Below, one piece after another: positions 5,079-25,045 of a stretch of DNA of 64,000 bases. The DNA comes from Fibrobacterota bacterium. GTDB taxonomy: Bacteria > Fibrobacterota > Chitinivibrionia > Chitinivibrionales > FEN-1185. How positions within the stretch are numbered: position 1 is the stretch's first letter; each line of letters begins with the position of its first letter. Location of the stretch: the NCBI GenBank assembly GCA_003165595.1, contig PLWQ01000018.1, forward strand, positions 119,393 through 183,392. Direction: 5' to 3'. The notes beneath the pieces are model-generated. The model saw only the letters and a list, made by a program, of their open reading frames with translations, searched no databases and was not told the DNA's origin. A program made the translations under genes and the position numbers.

Positions 5079-6263
5079 ATGGCGATTGCAAAAAACATTA
5101 AAGACTCAATGGAAAATTCCTCGTTCATCCGCAAAATGTTCGAACTCGGGGCGCAGCTCAAGAAACAGCACGGTGAACAGAACGTCTGCGATTTTACGCT
5201 TGGGAATCCGGACCTCGAACCTCCGGCAAAGTTTCAGGAAACCCTTAAAGACATTGTGAGCGAGAAGATTCCCCTCAAACACGGCTACATGGCCAACGCC
5301 GGTTTTCCGGAAACGCGCAGGAGCGTTGCCGCTTATGTGTCGAAGGAGCAGGGGGTGCCGACCGCCGAAAAGAGCATCATCATGACCTGCGGCGCGGGCG
5401 GCGGACTCAACGTGGTGCTCAAGACCATCCTCAATCCGGGCGACACGATCGTCGTTAATGTGCCGTATTTCGTGGAATACAACTTCTACATTCGCAACCA
5501 CGGCGGCGAAATGGTGCTTGCGGCCACCCGTGACGATTTCGATCTGGACATCGACGCCATCGAGAAGGCAATTGACAAAAGAACGGCCGGCGTTCTCATT
5601 AATTCACCGAACAACCCCACCGGCAAGGTATATCCGGAACAGACGATACGCGACCTGGGCCGGATGCTCCAGCGCAAGAGCGCGGAAACGGGCCGGGCAA
5701 TTTACCTGATAAGCGACGAGCCGTACCGGAAAATCGTGTACGACGGACTCGTCGTTCCGCCGCTCTTTGCCAATTACGCAAACAGCATCGTGGTGAATTC
5801 GTACTCCAAGGACCTGTCGATTCCCGGCGAGCGGCTGGGCTACATCGCCGTGCATCCGGCGGCCGGGGATTTCGACAATCTCGTTGACGGCATGATCCTG
5901 TGCAACCGCATTCTTGGATTTGTCAACGCACCCGCGCTGATGCAGCGCGTGGTGGCGAAGATCCAGGGAGTGAGCGTTGACGCGGAATTGTACAGGCGCC
6001 GGCGCGACCTGCTGTGCTCGAACCTGGCAAGGCTTGGCTACGACTTCACGCCGCCGGGAGGCACTTTCTATCTGTTTCCCAGGGCGCCCGGCGGAAATGA
6101 CGTCGAATTTGTGAAAGTCCTCCAGGAAAAGCTCGTGCTTGTTGTGCCCGGCACCGGGTTCGGCGCACCGGGATATTTCCGGATCGTGTTCTGCGTGAGC
6201 GAGGAGACGATTAAGCGGTCGTTCGCGGGATTTGAGTATGCGATCAAAAAGTTGAAAAGTTGA
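5079..6263 (+). CDS. PLP-dependent class I/II aminotransferase (aspartate aminotransferase-like)
   Basis: A 394-residue fold-type-I aminotransferase, cytosolic. Seen are the NSPNNPTGKVY cofactor/substrate loop, the ISDEPYRKIVYDG segment with the Asp that contacts the pyridine nitrogen, and the SYSKDLSIPGERLGY segment with the Schiff-base lysine. A substrate arginine is plausible in the C-terminal FRIVFC segment. The exact amino donor cannot be assigned; aspartate, alanine and aromatic specificities share this scaffold. Start is ATG at 5079 with GAAGGG upstream. The last codons (KKLKS) lie within an AAAGTTGA-type repeat, so the C-terminus appears remodelled by a repeat element. Confidence 0.88.
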   Translation: MAIAKNIKDSMENSSFIRKMFELGAQLKKQHGEQNVCDFTLGNPDLEPPAKFQETLKDIVSEKIPLKHGYMANAGFPETRRSVAAYVSKEQGVPTAEKSIIMTCGAGGGLNVVLKTILNPGDTIVVNVPYFVEYNFYIRNHGGEMVLAATRDDFDLDIDAIEKAIDKRTAGVLINSPNNPTGKVYPEQTIRDLGRMLQRKSAETGRAIYLISDEPYRKIVYDGLVVPPLFANYANSIVVNSYSKDLSIPGERLGYIAVHPAAGDFDNLVDGMILCNRILGFVNAPALMQRVVAKIQGVSVDAELYRRRRDLLCSNLARLGYDFTPPGGTFYLFPRAPGGNDVEFVKVLQEKLVLVVPGTGFGAPGYFRIVFCVSEETIKRSFAGFEYAIKKLKS

Positions 6264-6289
6264 CAGTTGAATGTTTAAAGTTGACAGTG
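6243..6289. repeat. Degenerate AAAGTTGAAAGTT-type repeat at the aminotransferase stop
   Basis: Four degenerate copies of an (A)AAGTTGA unit span the stop codon at 6261-6263. The same kind of unit forms the arms of the four-helix-bundle cassette at 21.2-21.7 kb, and a variant forms an inverted repeat at 42.6 kb. Confidence 0.5.
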
Positions 6290-19259: not shown

Positions 19260-20147
19260 ATGAACACGATAGTCATCACATCGGGCGCAATTCTTTTGTC
19301 AATAGCCGGCTTCTGCTATTCTCAGAAATCCGCCGACTTCGCCATCTTGTCGCAGCCGCGCGATTACACCATCCTCAATCAATACCAGCAACCGCTTTCG
19401 GATGCGGAGAAGAAGTCGCTTGGGGTCAACCTGCCGGCGCAAATTGAGAATGACGATGAACTGCTCGGCGATCAGATCACCCATGCGCTCAGGTTTGATT
19501 TCGATGGAAGGACATGGTTTCTTCAAAAGGACGAAGCCGGTAACTTGATCGGCGACAGGGGCAAGCAGTTCCGGCAGATGTTCAGGAAATGCACTGTTCT
19601 TGGTGACACTCTCCTGATAACTGAAGACCGGGCCGTGCCCTTTTCGGAAAAATTCCCGCCCGCCGGCCAGGGAAAGTCTCTTGGGAAAGGGGAGGCTGTC
19701 GTAAGAATATTCTCCACCGGACAGTTCGTCTACGTCAAGCGCGGCGATGCCCGAGCGGAGTATGGGTGGTGTTCGTTCGCGAGGAGGTCGGCATGGAAAG
19801 CCGTTGAACATGCCGTGGAGAAACCCCAGGCGCTCACCGGCCATCTGTCGGATCAGATTGTCCGGCGCTTTGCAGAGGCCAACAAGGTGTACAAAGAGTA
19901 TTTCGATCATTTCAATGAATTCACGCACCAGGAGAAAACAGTTCCGGCGTGGCAATGCGAGGCAAGCGGCAACGAGGTGCGGTGCACCCTTAACCTTCCG
20001 TACAGAAACAGCTCACAGCTCGAAGAAAGCACGCAATACCTTGTTCGCGACGTGGAGAACATGTTGATCGGAAAACACTACGAGGTTGTGGGCGGCAAGG
20101 GCGAAATCCTGGTTAAGCCGAAGGCGGACGCTGGAGCGCGGCAGTGA
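19260..20147 (+). CDS. Exported protein of unknown function, coupled to the permease gene
   Basis: 295 residues with a Sec signal peptide (1-21, GFCYSQ boundary). No named domain is recognised. The segment ALRFDFDGRTWFLQKDEAGNLIGDRG and a GKGEAVVRIFSTGQFVYVKRGD stretch look beta-rich, and residues 185-240 look helical. The stop overlaps the next gene's GTG by four bases, so it is coupled to the membrane protein at 20,144 and may be a periplasmic accessory of the importer. The ribosome-binding site is weak. Confidence 0.65.
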   Translation: MNTIVITSGAILLSIAGFCYSQKSADFAILSQPRDYTILNQYQQPLSDAEKKSLGVNLPAQIENDDELLGDQITHALRFDFDGRTWFLQKDEAGNLIGDRGKQFRQMFRKCTVLGDTLLITEDRAVPFSEKFPPAGQGKSLGKGEAVVRIFSTGQFVYVKRGDARAEYGWCSFARRSAWKAVEHAVEKPQALTGHLSDQIVRRFAEANKVYKEYFDHFNEFTHQEKTVPAWQCEASGNEVRCTLNLPYRNSSQLEESTQYLVRDVENMLIGKHYEVVGGKGEILVKPKADAGARQ

Positions 20148-21208
20148 ATCGAAAACTCTTCGAACATGGGCTGAGCATCGCTTTCGTGACGGCCGTATTG
20201 CTGTGCGTGCTCTTTGCGGTACGTTCCGGCACTCAGACCAGAACCAAAGCCGAAGCAGCTTCGTCGCAGACCTACGGCAATCTCGGGTTCGTGGATTTCG
20301 ACAATGCTTTTCACAAGGCGCTGCTCAAGGACGCGGTGAACATCTTCTACCCGGACCAATACGAAAAGAACAACGCCGCGGTTGAGAAGATTCTTGCGAA
20401 TAAGGAAAACGAATTCAGCAGGAAGCTGCAGGAATCCGGCGTGGAGGAACGGCTTTCGTTTGGAAAGCTTTTGCAATTGTTGGTCATGCTTCTCAAGTTC
20501 GTACTCGTGTACGCCGTCGTAATGATCCTAACGTACTATGGCGTCCAGACGATTGCCGTGTTCCGGTTTACCCGCAAGAAACTGCGGTCGCGCGAGACAA
20601 CCCGGTCCTTTGCGGGTGTCCTTGCCCGCGTTGCAAAAACAATCGGAAAGACAGCCGTGTATTTCGTACTTTTCTCTCCCGCCTACGTAATCGCGTATTC
20701 AATAAGGACGGAATTCAATACCGACACAATCGTCTTTATGGCGCTGCTCGGCGTAATATCCAACGGCCTGCTTGTTACCTACGCGAATAAGTTCTACGCC
20801 TTTCTTGTTGCGGAAAGCAGAAAAGGATACGTTGAGACTGCGCTTGTGAAGAACTTGTCGGATTCGTATTCGCCCCGCGGACCGGGCGGCATCGGCTACC
20901 GCGCCATTCTGAGGCCCGCCAAGCGGTTCGACGGACATGTGTTTGGCCACATTTTTTCCAATGCGCGATACCAGTATCTGTCGACCATCAAGGAACAGGC
21001 GTCGTTTCTGGTTTCGGGCCTCATCATCATCGAAATGGCGCTCAACATTCACGGTCACTTGAGCTACGAGATGCTGCGTCAGATGCTGTACAAGAACTAC
21101 GACATTGTGATCGCTATTATCCTGGGAATCTTCTATGTGGTGAAGGGAACGGAAGTCGTGGTTGATATGATGGGGAACAGGGCGGAGAAGAGGATGGAGA
21201 ACAAGTGA
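20144..21208 (+). CDS. Multi-spanning membrane protein, probable first permease of the ABC importer
   Basis: 354 residues. One N-terminal helix (10-28) is followed by an extracytoplasmic segment of about 85 residues, then at least five helices (110-137, 165-185, 195-215, 285-305, 320-340). The layout is like DppB-type permeases, which carry a large first periplasmic loop. The segment GYVETALVKNLSDSYSPRGPGGIGYRAILRPA occupies the place of the EAA coupling loop but is divergent. Genes before and after are coupled or close. The stop codon is immediately followed by the left arm of an inverted-repeat cassette. I am sure it is a membrane protein, less so that it is a permease. Confidence 0.65.
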   Translation: MNRKLFEHGLSIAFVTAVLLCVLFAVRSGTQTRTKAEAASSQTYGNLGFVDFDNAFHKALLKDAVNIFYPDQYEKNNAAVEKILANKENEFSRKLQESGVEERLSFGKLLQLLVMLLKFVLVYAVVMILTYYGVQTIAVFRFTRKKLRSRETTRSFAGVLARVAKTIGKTAVYFVLFSPAYVIAYSIRTEFNTDTIVFMALLGVISNGLLVTYANKFYAFLVAESRKGYVETALVKNLSDSYSPRGPGGIGYRAILRPAKRFDGHVFGHIFSNARYQYLSTIKEQASFLVSGLIIIEMALNIHGHLSYEMLRQMLYKNYDIVIAIILGIFYVVKGTEVVVDMMGNRAEKRMENK

Positions 21209-21690
21209 GTTCAAAGTTGAAAGTTTGAAGTTGAAAGTTAAGAGAAGCAGGGAATGGGTACCACATTTGAAGACTTGGATGTATGGAAGAGATCATGCAG
21301 ATTGACCGTGGAAATGTTCTCTTTGCTTAAGTCGTGCAAGGAATACGGATTGAAGGACCAGATGCTGCGCGCCTCGGTGTCGATCGCATCGAATATTGCC
21401 GAGGGGAGTGAGAGAAACAGCTCGGCGGAGTTCCGCAGATTTCTCTTTATCGCCAAGGGTTCGGCGGCGGAGCTGCGGACGCAGGTATACATTGCCGGTA
21501 GCATCGGAGTCTTTGAGGCTGACGTTTGCCAAAGGCTTGCTGCCGAATTGAAGGAAGTATCCAAAATGCTCCAGGGACTCGCAAATTCATTATCGACAAG
21601 CAGGAGCGTGGGACGCAAAGAGCAATGAACGAGGGCGACGTTCTATTCGGTCAACTTTCAACTTGAAACTTTTAACTTTCTACTAGTTCA
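21209..21690 (+). mobile_element. Inverted-repeat cassette carrying a four-helix-bundle gene
   Basis: The left arm (21,209-21,240) is built of GTTGAAAGTTTGAAGTTGAA units and begins right after the stop codon of the upstream membrane protein. The right arm (21,653-21,690) carries the reverse-complement units (AACTTTCAACTTGAAAC...) and ends one base before the next gene's ATG. The only cargo is the four-helix-bundle gene. No transposase, target-site duplication or integrase is visible. The downstream permease gene lacks a recognisable Shine-Dalgarno sequence, as if the insertion had displaced it. Confidence 0.55.
21254..21628 (+). CDS. Four-helix-bundle protein of the 23S rRNA intervening-sequence/Avd family
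   Basis: 124 residues with the classic pattern: FEDLDVWKRSCRLTVEMF at the N-terminus, LKDQMLRASVSIASNIAEGSER in the middle and FIAKGSAAELRTQV before the last helix. Such proteins were first seen encoded within 23S rRNA insertions; relatives (Avd) accompany diversity-generating retroelements, but no reverse transcriptase or rRNA is near here. It forms basic oligomeric helical bundles that may bind nucleic acid. It lies alone inside inverted repeats, wedged between two importer genes with no functional relation. Confidence 0.88.
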   Translation: MGTTFEDLDVWKRSCRLTVEMFSLLKSCKEYGLKDQMLRASVSIASNIAEGSERNSSAEFRRFLFIAKGSAAELRTQVYIAGSIGVFEADVCQRLAAELKEVSKMLQGLANSLSTSRSVGRKEQ

Positions 21691-21691
21691 A

Positions 21692-22543
21692 ATGAAACAA
21701 TTGTTGAAAAGAAAAGACTCCCGCTGGCTCGGCATATGGCTCGCCGGTATTCTCCTTGTGGGAATATGGGACGTCCTGTTCCTCAACAGGCCCGCGCTGC
21801 TTCAGGTGACGGCCGGTTTCTTCAACACCTTCTGCGTTGCGCTCCTGGTGGTCGTCTTCACGCTGCTATTGGCATGGGGCTTCGCGCTGGCGCTCCATTT
21901 TCTTGACGCCGGGAGGAACAGGACCCCCTATATGCTGCTCACCTTTGCGCTCAATCTTATCCGTTCCATTCCTCAGATCGTGGGCATTCTCTTCGGGTAC
22001 GTGGGAGTGAGCGCGCTTGTGGAGGCCGGTTTCATTCGAAGCCCGGTCTTGATTTTCTCACTCCTCGCGCTGTCAATCAGCCTCTTTGTGTTCATAGAAT
22101 TCGTCGACCTCCTGCGCGAACGCATCGCACACTTCCAAAAGCTCGACTTTTACAATGCGATGCGTGTCTGCGGAATTTCCGAGGGGCGTGTGATCAATTT
22201 CGACATTTTGTGGAAGAACAGCAGGATTCACATTCTTAACAAACTGATATCGGTATTCGGCGCGGCCATATTCCTGCAATGCAGCGTGGATTTCATCATT
22301 TCGGTGGGCCTTTCCACCGACGTCAATTCGGTGACCCTGCCCGCGACCATGGGCAGCCTTCTCGCCAAAATAGACAGCAAGCAGGACATCCTTGCCATCG
22401 GCTACACGCTCACGCACCCGGCGTACGCGGGCAACCTGTTTTTCGAACATCTGATGGGGCTCACGGTTGCGTTTCTCGTGGTCTTCACGCTCATGTCGGT
22501 GTACCATATCGCAAATGGGTACGCGGAAAGGCACCGTCTATGA
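21692..22543 (+). CDS. ABC importer permease (binding-protein-dependent transport inner membrane component)
   Basis: 283 residues with about six transmembrane helices. The cytoplasmic coupling loop YNAMRVCGISEGRVINFDILWKN matches the EAA-type motif (A..x..G......i.f..l). The length and the ALALHFL...LRSIPQIVGILFGY segment fit DppC- or MetI-like permeases. The stop overlaps the ATPase gene start (ATGA), so coupled translation is expected. No good ribosome-binding site precedes the ATG because the inserted cassette ends there. Confidence 0.82.
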   Translation: MKQLLKRKDSRWLGIWLAGILLVGIWDVLFLNRPALLQVTAGFFNTFCVALLVVVFTLLLAWGFALALHFLDAGRNRTPYMLLTFALNLIRSIPQIVGILFGYVGVSALVEAGFIRSPVLIFSLLALSISLFVFIEFVDLLRERIAHFQKLDFYNAMRVCGISEGRVINFDILWKNSRIHILNKLISVFGAAIFLQCSVDFIISVGLSTDVNSVTLPATMGSLLAKIDSKQDILAIGYTLTHPAYAGNLFFEHLMGLTVAFLVVFTLMSVYHIANGYAERHRL

Positions 22544-24042
22544 ACGCCCATCGCTATTCCGTCTGCATCCGGGCCGGCGAGCGGACTATCGTCACGACGG
22601 ACAACTACGACGTTGTCCCGAACGAGATTACATTTCTCTTCGGAGAGTCGGGCATTGGAAAGTCGATGATCTCCAAAGCGGTGTACGGGCTGCTCGACCC
22701 CGACGATCTCGACGTAACGGTAAACGGACGACCGTATCCCGAATATTGTGCCCTCGCTTCGACTCACGAAATACGCGACAACAGTTTTTTCGTATTCCAG
22801 GAACCGTCGTCACACTTGAATTCGCTGATGAAAATCTCGGACCAATTGAGCGAGGGGAGCCTGAGGCTGTGCAAGGACGACTCCGAGATACTCGGCAGGC
22901 TGTGGCAGAACGCGGACCGCAACGCTCTTCGCCGCGTTCTCAATGTTTTTCCCAAACCCTACCGGCCAAGCGGCGGAGAAAAGCAGCGCGTGCTGCTGGC
23001 AATGGCGTTCAAGAAAATGGATGTCTTGGCATCGACAAAGGATGACGGAGCGGAGAGCTTTTTTGTGTTCGACGAACCGACGGGCAGCCTCGACAACAAC
23101 TACCGCAATCTTTTTCTTGAGTTGCTTTTTGAGAAATATACGCGTCGCCCGTTTACGGCGATGATAATCACCCACGACTACTCGGTGATAAGCGAATTGT
23201 ACGCGCGGTATCGGGGGTTCCTGCCGCGCATTCACCTCATGGAGCTGCGGCGCGCCGGCGCGCGCGCGGTGGAGGTGATCGATTTCTCGGCGCAGGAGTA
23301 CCTGAACTGGCTCGGTGAAAAGCCTCCACAGGTTTCGGGCACGGTCGCGGGCGCGGCAGTGCTCGATTTCGGCGCCCGCTTCTCCGTGTTTGGCCGGAAC
23401 CTGTGCCTTTTCAAGGACGCCGCCCACACGCAGCCGGCAAACCTGGTTATCCGGAAGGGTGAAATGGCATATGTCAAGGCACCGAGCGGCGTGGGCAAGA
23501 CAACTCTGGCAAAGGTAATCATGGGCCTGTACCATGCGCACGATCTGGCTATGAACCTCTGCGGCATGCCGATTACAGGGCGCACCGGGAAGAAGGTGTG
23601 GGAAACCAGGATATGGGGCAAGAAGGCGACCATGGTGTTTCAGCACGCCGACGAGTCCCTCAACCTTGCCGCAACGGTGCGGGAAACGTTCCTCGGTTTG
23701 CCGCTTGCGCGCAGGCTCACGCCGCAGACGCTCGTCTCGGCGCTGGGCGAGCTGTTCGAAGACTCGGTGACCGATGCTTTCCTTTCGAAGAAAGTGGCAA
23801 TGCTTTCCGGCGGTCAAAAACAGCGGCTCAACCTGCTGCGCAGCATCGTGCTGGGCACCGACCTGCTTATTCTCGACGAACCGCTCAACGGCCTGGATTT
23901 CCTAAGCGTCAAGAAGGTCTTGTCGATTCTCGACGATCGTCGCGGCCGGGGCGCAGCCCTGCTGATGATTTCTCACAACGAAGAAATCTTCGATCATTTT
24001 GTGGGCAGGGAGCATGTGTACTATTTGACGGAATGCAGCTAA
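22540..24042 (+). CDS. Fused double ABC ATPase of the importer
   Basis: 500 residues holding two complete nucleotide-binding domains. First half: Walker A GESGIGKS (near 35), Q-loop FVFQEP, signature PSGGEKQR, Walker B FFVFDEPTGS, H-loop IITHD. Second half: Walker A-like APSGVGKT (near 315; the first Gly is Ala), Q-loop MVFQHA, signature LSGGQKQR, Walker B LLILDEPLNG, H-loop MISHN. In peptide/nickel importers the two ATPases (DppD, DppF) are usually separate, so this is a DppDF-type fusion. It energises the permeases encoded upstream. Confidence 0.9.
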   Translation: MNAHRYSVCIRAGERTIVTTDNYDVVPNEITFLFGESGIGKSMISKAVYGLLDPDDLDVTVNGRPYPEYCALASTHEIRDNSFFVFQEPSSHLNSLMKISDQLSEGSLRLCKDDSEILGRLWQNADRNALRRVLNVFPKPYRPSGGEKQRVLLAMAFKKMDVLASTKDDGAESFFVFDEPTGSLDNNYRNLFLELLFEKYTRRPFTAMIITHDYSVISELYARYRGFLPRIHLMELRRAGARAVEVIDFSAQEYLNWLGEKPPQVSGTVAGAAVLDFGARFSVFGRNLCLFKDAAHTQPANLVIRKGEMAYVKAPSGVGKTTLAKVIMGLYHAHDLAMNLCGMPITGRTGKKVWETRIWGKKATMVFQHADESLNLAATVRETFLGLPLARRLTPQTLVSALGELFEDSVTDAFLSKKVAMLSGGQKQRLNLLRSIVLGTDLLILDEPLNGLDFLSVKKVLSILDDRRGRGAALLMISHNEEIFDHFVGREHVYYLTECS

Positions 24043-24151
24043 CCATGTACGATGCGGATGCAGCCGCCTGGCGCCGCAGTGCGGAGTCCTTCAAAAGCCG
24101 GTGGCTTTTCACCTGAACGATTTACTCAACCTTCATAGCCAAGGAGCATCC

Positions 24152-25045
24152 ATGAAATTCACCGTGAGGGCGATTTTGTCTTCATGCTTTATTGTTGCTT
24201 GCGCGGGCGTTTCTTCGGCCGACCCATGGAAAATTGACCTGAATCTTAACCTGACCACCGGCGTCAATTCCTACAGCAACAACTGGGTCGGCGGCGAAGC
24301 GGGGTCGTTCACCTGGGCGTCCCAGTTCCTTGGCAATGCGGAAAAGCAAATCAGTCCAATACTAAACACAAGAACAACCCTTAACCTGCAGTTCGGGCAA
24401 ACAGCTGTACAGGACAAGGACACAAAGCATTGGAGCGCACCCCAGAAATCTTCCGACCTGATTGATGGGTTGGAGCTTCTGCGGTTTACCTTGGGCGGCT
24501 GGGCCGACCCGTTCATCAGCGTACGCGCGATAAGCGAATTCCTTGACGGAAGCGATACCATGCTTGTACGCTACGGCAACCCGTTGGACGTTACCGAGGC
24601 GGTGGGCGGCGACCGCGTCCTGCAGAAGAATCAGAACGTGGACTGGTCGACACGCTTAGGCGTAGCGGCGCACCAGCTTGTCGACCGTCATCATCTCGAT
24701 ACGGCGACCGGCATACGCGCCAACGACGTCACCAACGACGGCGGGGTTGAATTCGACATGGACCTCAAGGCGAACAACAAAGCGAAATGGGTGACGCTGC
24801 TCAGCTCGCTTCGGGTATACGAAGCCCTGGTAAGCTCCAAGGCGAACGCTGAAAAAGGAACACCGGAGGAAAATGACTGGAGATATCCGCACGTGAAATG
24901 GGAAAACAATCTTACGTTGAATTTCGCCAAGTATCTCATGCTCAATGTGTCGGCATATTTGTATTACGACAAAGACATCAGCAGAGACGTGCGTTTGAAA
25001 GAAGCGATTACGGCGGGGTTGACCTACGTTTATTCCAAGAAATAA
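24152..25045 (+). CDS. DUF3078-like outer-membrane beta-barrel protein
   Basis: 298 residues from ATG 24152 with AAGGAG upstream. A signal peptide (1-23, SSADP boundary) is followed by alternating aromatic/polar strands. The early WKIDLNLNLTTGVNSYSNNW and the WVGGEAGSFTWASQF repeat-like start are typical of DUF3078 proteins of the FCB group. The chain ends in aromatic/basic YVYSKK, similar to barrel termini. The function of the family is unknown. It follows the importer ATPase by 109 bases and could be its outer-membrane partner, but this is only positional. Confidence 0.7.
   Translation: MKFTVRAILSSCFIVACAGVSSADPWKIDLNLNLTTGVNSYSNNWVGGEAGSFTWASQFLGNAEKQISPILNTRTTLNLQFGQTAVQDKDTKHWSAPQKSSDLIDGLELLRFTLGGWADPFISVRAISEFLDGSDTMLVRYGNPLDVTEAVGGDRVLQKNQNVDWSTRLGVAAHQLVDRHHLDTATGIRANDVTNDGGVEFDMDLKANNKAKWVTLLSSLRVYEALVSSKANAEKGTPEENDWRYPHVKWENNLTLNFAKYLMLNVSAYLYYDKDISRDVRLKEAITAGLTYVYSKK

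Follow-up and report, generated by a model that had tools for sequence, protein, structure and literature searches.

An IVP gene between inverted heptamer arrays, inserted into an operon, and a candidate link between the IVP family and dispersed seven-letter repeats

To our knowledge, the IVP/S23 family (23S rRNA-intervening-sequence protein, four helix bundle protein) still lacks an assigned function, decades after its proteins were first described. Likewise, we know of no origin given so far for the heptameric intergenic repeats of Xanthomonas, Nostoc, Geobacter and other bacteria. The 23S intervening sequence of Coxiella is 428 nt long, contains the S23 ORF, has a 28-bp terminal stem, is excised by RNase III and carries tandem GACAGAT heptamers 5' of the ORF (PMC4990558). 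IVP also occurs in CPR bacteria, within 16S/23S insertions (PMC11270868), and IVP genes have been reported in CRISPR-Cas loci (PMC3936711). In X. campestris, 186 dispersed intergenic GGGAATC arrays have been described, mostly of four units and with 70 in convergent pairs, their origin being left unexplained; 90% of GGGAATC arrays sit between the same genes in two Xanthomonas species (PMC4692102).

In this study, we report an IVP gene packaged in inverted heptamer arrays. The cassette resembles the 23S rRNA intervening sequences of Leptospira and Coxiella in size (about 430-480 nt) and in having an IVP ORF within complementary terminal arms. It differs from them in lying in a protein-coding operon, not inside an rRNA gene, and in having heptamer arrays for both arms, with a unit that is specific to the lineage and also occurs in dispersed hairpins lacking the gene. 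The REPIN-RAYT system is similar in having one protein gene between inverted repeats, a lineage-specific repeat matched to the protein and, with the exception here of genomes G045 and G047, many short inverted-pair copies dispersed between genes. However, IVP is a four-helix-bundle pentamer whereas RAYT (TnpA-REP) is a Y1 HUH transposase, and the IVP repeats are heptamer arrays in contrast to the REP palindromes of REPINs. The GGGAATC/GGGGAYT arrays of Xanthomonas and Nostoc are also dispersed, intergenic, mostly of four units and often in convergent pairs, and the GGGAATC unit forms the IVP arms in Xanthomonadales; they were described, however, as G-quadruplex simple repeats without a gene partner, and IVP is unmentioned in the main text of that report (PMC4692102). 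Avd of the diversity-generating retroelements has a homologous fold, is a pentamer and acts as a nucleic-acid-working accessory protein (PMC10053308) but, unlike Avd, the IVP reported here has no reverse transcriptase or template/variable repeat beside it (positions 19260-25045). From insertion sequences and MITEs the element differs in carrying no transposase.

As judged from sequence comparison, the IVP family is probably linked to the seven-letter repeats of unexplained origin that are spread through the genomes of bacteria such as Xanthomonas. This link offers a testable partner to each side, a binding partner for the protein and a source for the repeats. No paper joining IVP with dispersed heptamer repeats was found in the open literature, to which the search was confined.

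The cassette and its insertion site

The window, which is the whole stretch of DNA that was analysed, comprises 64,000 nt (G000:C13:119393-183392) of a 5.39-Mb draft genome, G000. The whole element spans positions 21208-21684 and consists of an IVP gene (21254-21628, plus strand, 124 aa) between two 39-nt arms of tandem heptamers. The left arm (21208-21246, plus strand) and the right arm (21646-21684, minus strand) are both period-7 tandem repeats that read (AAAGTTG)n inward, with 399 nt between them. They are 82% complementary over 39 nt, in agreement with an earlier note which had described them as imperfect reverse complements, and the arm score of this locus (L010) exceeded that of all 200 shuffles in the inverted-arm test. 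RNA folding predicts that the two arms pair with each other (MFE -166 kcal/mol, z -3.1). Elsewhere in the window, a lone GTTGAAA/GTTGACA array of the same family (6253-6289, plus strand) has no partner arm.

The ORF matched PF05635 (E 5.5e-33, 113.8 bits against a curated cut-off of 33.8) and TIGR02436 (E 1.5e-32, 112 bits against a cut-off of 24) in profile searches, which bears out the earlier assignment of the sole cargo to the intervening-sequence/Avd family. No other cargo and no transposase were present in the element, as had been noted before; PF05635 was the only match, no catalytic domain being found in IVP, and IVP had no match in phages. A search over 20900-22000 for rRNA or Rfam families gave no match, and the cassette lies between two protein genes. 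Among solved structures, the nearest to the window protein is XCC0516 from X. campestris (PDB 2GSC, E 5e-17), a pentamer. At another locus, L242:4467-4944 (G041), an IVP ORF lies inside matching arms, but the sole ATG would give it a length of 81 codons, so that truncation or the use of a different start codon is possible.

Upstream of the element lies a membrane-protein gene (20144-21208, plus strand), which adjoins or overlaps the next gene in relatives, and downstream is a displaced, permease-like membrane-protein gene (21692-22543, plus strand), followed in the same operon by a double ABC ATPase gene (22540-24042, plus strand). The sequence before the downstream ATG at 21692 is ...TTTCTACTAGTTCAA-ATG, and it holds no Shine-Dalgarno sequence, as the earlier note had remarked. 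That note had called the flanking genes ABC importer genes; the two ABC_tran domains of the ATPase are in favour of this, but neither membrane protein matched any family in Pfam or NCBIfam. The fit of the left arm to the upstream gene is tight, although the arm starts on the last base of the stop codon (TGA, 21206-21208) and not on the base after it. The right arm had been thought to end one base before the ATG, but its inverted repeat already ends at 21684, and the seven bases 21685-21691 are part of a direct copy of the 8-bp sequence AGTTCAAA. This sequence forms the first 8 nt of the left arm (21208-21215, plus strand), also fits the heptamer, and recurs directly at 21685-21692 (plus strand), its last base being the A of the permease start codon. 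The pair is a possible target-site duplication or due to chance; direct repeats showed no excess across 32 elements, so the target-site footprint from which a mechanism was to be read did not emerge.

The downstream permease gene was detected in 17 of 41 genomes. In 13 of the 14 informative relatives from the same order, the flanking genes abut, overlap or lie no more than about 30 nt apart, so that the proposed search for the importer operon lacking the segment found the junction empty; in the fourteenth (L052) there is a 439-nt spacer with N runs and without heptamers. The only congener, G001, has a heptad insert at the same junction, with GTTGACA-type arms and a GIY-YIG gene as cargo (L044:1066-1293, PF01541). 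In the nucleotide alignment of the two congeneric genomes, similarity breaks exactly at the stop codon and restarts at the ATG. From the empty sites and this alignment break, comparative evidence shows that the flanking genes were adjacent in the ancestor and that the cassette copy between them is a derived insertion, and the different cargo within heptad arms in the congener indicates that the junction has been invaded in the genus with cargo differing between species. Around the other heptad hairpins, the two genomes share too little gene order for empty sites to be scored.

The best matches of the window IVP come from Pseudomonadota, Desulfobacterota, Nitrospirota and Planctomycetota, at 60-64% identity, whereas the IVPs of its own genome and order reach only 35-45%; it therefore probably arrived horizontally. 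Together with the empty sites in 13 relatives and the break at stop and ATG, this horizontal source upholds the earlier proposal that a packaged element had been inserted here.

In the congener, the GIY-YIG gene lies within a second inverted repeat (GTCATTGCGAGGAGC.../...GCTCGCAACGAC; ATTGCGAGGAGC...) that is itself nested in the heptad arms (L044:956-1530, G001:C31). GIY-YIG genes were considered as general heptad cargo and rejected, because heptad arms flanked only one of the 19 small GIY-YIG genes that could be tested in the order. Two further small GIY-YIG genes of the order, at L267 and L259, are flanked by different palindromes (CGTCATTCCGGCGAAAGCCGGAATCCAG and CTGAGCGAAGTCGAAG), which suggests that GIY-YIG genes possess arm families of their own.

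Arms and dispersed hairpins in other genomes

The earlier note had asked whether arms of one type, AAAGTTGAAAGTT, flank all copies of the gene family. This fixed-sequence test fails even inside G000, where the other IVP copies bear GGGGTCA arms (one copy), AATGACT arms (one copy) or none (one copy), and it was therefore replaced by tests free of the unit sequence. In the AAAGTTGAAAGTT scan, Markov-chain shuffles served as background, since reversing the pattern merely rotates the unit and so gives no valid control. Arms were called where the score beat all 200 shuffles, and control windows with identical geometry were taken from these loci.

Convergent inverted arms were present at 81 of 119 IVP loci from other orders, Xanthomonadales and cyanobacterial plasmids included, and at 53 of the 77 from other phyla, compared with two of 214 control windows; about 30% of IVP loci have no significant arms. 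Among the 53 armed loci of the 77-locus subset, the period is 7 in 46 and 8 in five, and the orientation is convergent, with the G-rich strand inward, in 52. There are about 4-5 units per arm, and the heptamer consensus across arms is NN[AC]AG[TG][TG]. Arm units at IVP loci of the order to which G000 belongs comprise GGGGTCA, AATGACT, AGTGGGG, GGAGACA, AGAATCC, GAATGAG, GTGTCGG and several 8-mers. The 7-nt period, the convergent orientation and the AG core are thus constant across the family while the unit sequence varies, and the expectation that arms surround other family members holds for arms in general, not for one arm sequence.

Similarity between IVP proteins predicts similarity between their units (Spearman 0.43, and 0.38 for cross-phylum pairs only), and none of 2000 permutations gave a correlation as high. 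By these comparisons, the IVP gene and its arms are a recurrent unit across phyla in which the arm unit co-varies with the protein. The co-variation indicates that gene and arms are inherited as one unit and makes recognition of the arms by the protein possible; it could also reflect common descent of the unit and not recognition.

The units are also dispersed without the gene. The AGTTTTC unit (CAGTTTTCAGTTTTCAG) had 22, 194, 36 and 43 matches in its four matching genomes and 0-1 in twelve others; the AAGGTTC unit had 7, 11, 4 and 14 matches, and AAGTGAG 19 and 4, in their matching genomes, against 0-1 elsewhere. The unit-by-genome matrix is nearly diagonal, a unit being dispersed where the IVP of that genome carries it and almost missing from the others. 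For G045 and G047, matches are confined to the IVP locus itself, as is the GGGGTCA unit of the second IVP in G000. In the planctomycete G042, short intergenic hairpins (arms of about 35 nt, loop of at most 53 nt) were contained in 15 of 20 sampled array stretches and the IVP in one, and several heptamer sites in G000 are likewise hairpins. Of 63 array edges, 24 lie no more than 6 nt from a stop codon on the same strand, as compared with 3.5% of random non-ORF positions. The base-level precision remarked on at the window junction is therefore general, being shared by the hairpin family at large and not peculiar to this copy. At L030:1260-1526 (G000:C35), heptad arms enclose only a ATTGCGAGGAGC palindromic repeat and no gene.

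Possible mechanism and alternative explanations

The explanation that we favour, with the balance of probability standing about even, is a horizontally acquired IVP cassette that behaves like a REPIN/RAYT system and has a partner protein that is no recognisable transposase. In single-stranded DNA or RNA, the pentameric IVP would recognise its cognate heptamer arrays, the about four to five units of an arm, with one AG core per unit, being read by the pentamer. It may promote the spread of its own cassette and of gene-less hairpins, as RAYT does for REPINs. Since IVP is without a known catalytic domain, catalysis would be borrowed from the host or from a trans enzyme recruited by the pentamer. 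Insertions would survive where the hairpin directly follows a stop codon. The stem in the transcript would draw the stop and the next start close together, or RNase III could cleave it, as happens with the intervening sequences of 23S rRNA, and by such proximity or processing the operon would remain usable. The analysis gave no sign of a transposition event, an excision product or a catalytic residue, and participation of the bundle protein or mobilisation in trans, as suggested earlier, would still be the best proposal. If IVP moves its repeats, it would represent a mobilising system without a recognisable transposase. A broader proposal, which we offer only tentatively, is that a new class of repeat-mobilising systems is founded on IVP/S23 proteins, in which the pentamer reads heptamer arrays with about one unit per subunit and drives their dispersal; if true, it would explain the intergenic heptamers of Xanthomonas, and possibly also such repeats in cyanobacteria and elsewhere among bacteria.

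The strongest rival, which we nevertheless consider unlikely, places the element at the RNA level, as a 23S-type intervening sequence residing in mRNAs, with RNase III cutting the stem, IVP acting as a passenger or stem chaperone, and the hairpins being passive, gene-less relics. The anatomy does match the Coxiella intervening sequence (PMC4990558), the arms pair in the predicted fold, and IVP occurs in the 16S/23S insertions of CPR bacteria (PMC11270868). Yet the gene-less hairpins of G042 far outnumber its IVP copies, above what simple relics would lead one to expect, RNA excision alone does not account for spread, and the window locus has no rRNA or Rfam family. Somewhat less probable again is a regulatory network in which IVP is an RNA-binding regulator, similar to TRAP or CsrA, of heptad hairpins at gene ends, its own arms serving for autoregulation. 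Hairpins adjoining stop codons, positions long conserved in Xanthomonas (PMC4692102) and a pentamer (2GSC) set against about 4-5 units per arm would suit such a regulator; but cross-phylum transfer, the exchange of IVP and GIY-YIG cargo at one junction, insertion into unrelated operons, CRISPR included, and units that differ sharply between genomes look mobile or selfish.

Heptamer arrays might also be slippage hot spots, produced by polymerase slippage and snap-back copying, with IVP tolerating them or hitch-hiking. Over-abundance of heptamers was indeed credited to polymerase slippage in earlier work, as cited in PMC4692102. We disfavour this improbable reading; against it stand the association of IVP with arms (53/77 vs 2/214), the near-diagonal relation of unit to genome, the protein-unit correlation, the constant convergent orientation, and the 22 arrays found with IVP against one without it in Xanthomonadales groups that were not phylogeny-matched. 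The null of the earlier note, an ordinary vertical gene beside low-complexity DNA, finds a parallel in the Xanthomonadales IVP, which has been retained vertically at one locus. It is refuted for the window copy by empty sites in relatives and by cross-phylum identity of the IVP, the arms being moreover a family trait, and we give it almost no weight.

Heptamer repeats of Xanthomonadales, cyanobacteria and other bacteria

Xanthomonadales homologues of XCC0516 have (GGGAATC)n or (GGGATTC)n as their inverted arms and occupy one conserved locus. In IVP-positive Xanthomonadales, 22 arrays (eight convergent pairs) were counted per 0.73 Mb sampled, compared with one (no pair) in IVP-negative members, the two groups not being phylogeny-matched. 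The conserved IVP locus, together with the 90% of array positions common to two species, suggests that movement is slow or past. Seven Xanthomonadales IVPs at the same conserved locus (L326, L327, L330, L333, L336, L339 and L341), with ~135 aa to the stop, have no significant arms and possibly form a domesticated subgroup.

IVPs of cyanobacterial plasmids have arms of GGGAGTA, AGGGAAC or GGTGACA. An IVP with inverted arms lies between cas6 and cas4 on a plasmid of Anabaena sp. 90 (L304:822-1599, period 7), and another between cas10 and cmr3 on a Picosynechococcus plasmid (L305:1147-1576, period 8). The presence of armed IVPs inside two CRISPR operons is a possible reason for the reported cas association, which may reflect insertion of IVP between operon genes.

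Beggiatoaceae have TAACTGA repeats (PMC4679880) that were kept apart from this class because they are direct repeats located 5' of start codons. In Geobacter metallireducens, families of 4-5 tandem heptanucleotides (GGGACCG, MTYCTGA) have been described as putative regulator sites (PMC2700814), and these may be further cases of the IVP-type repeat class.
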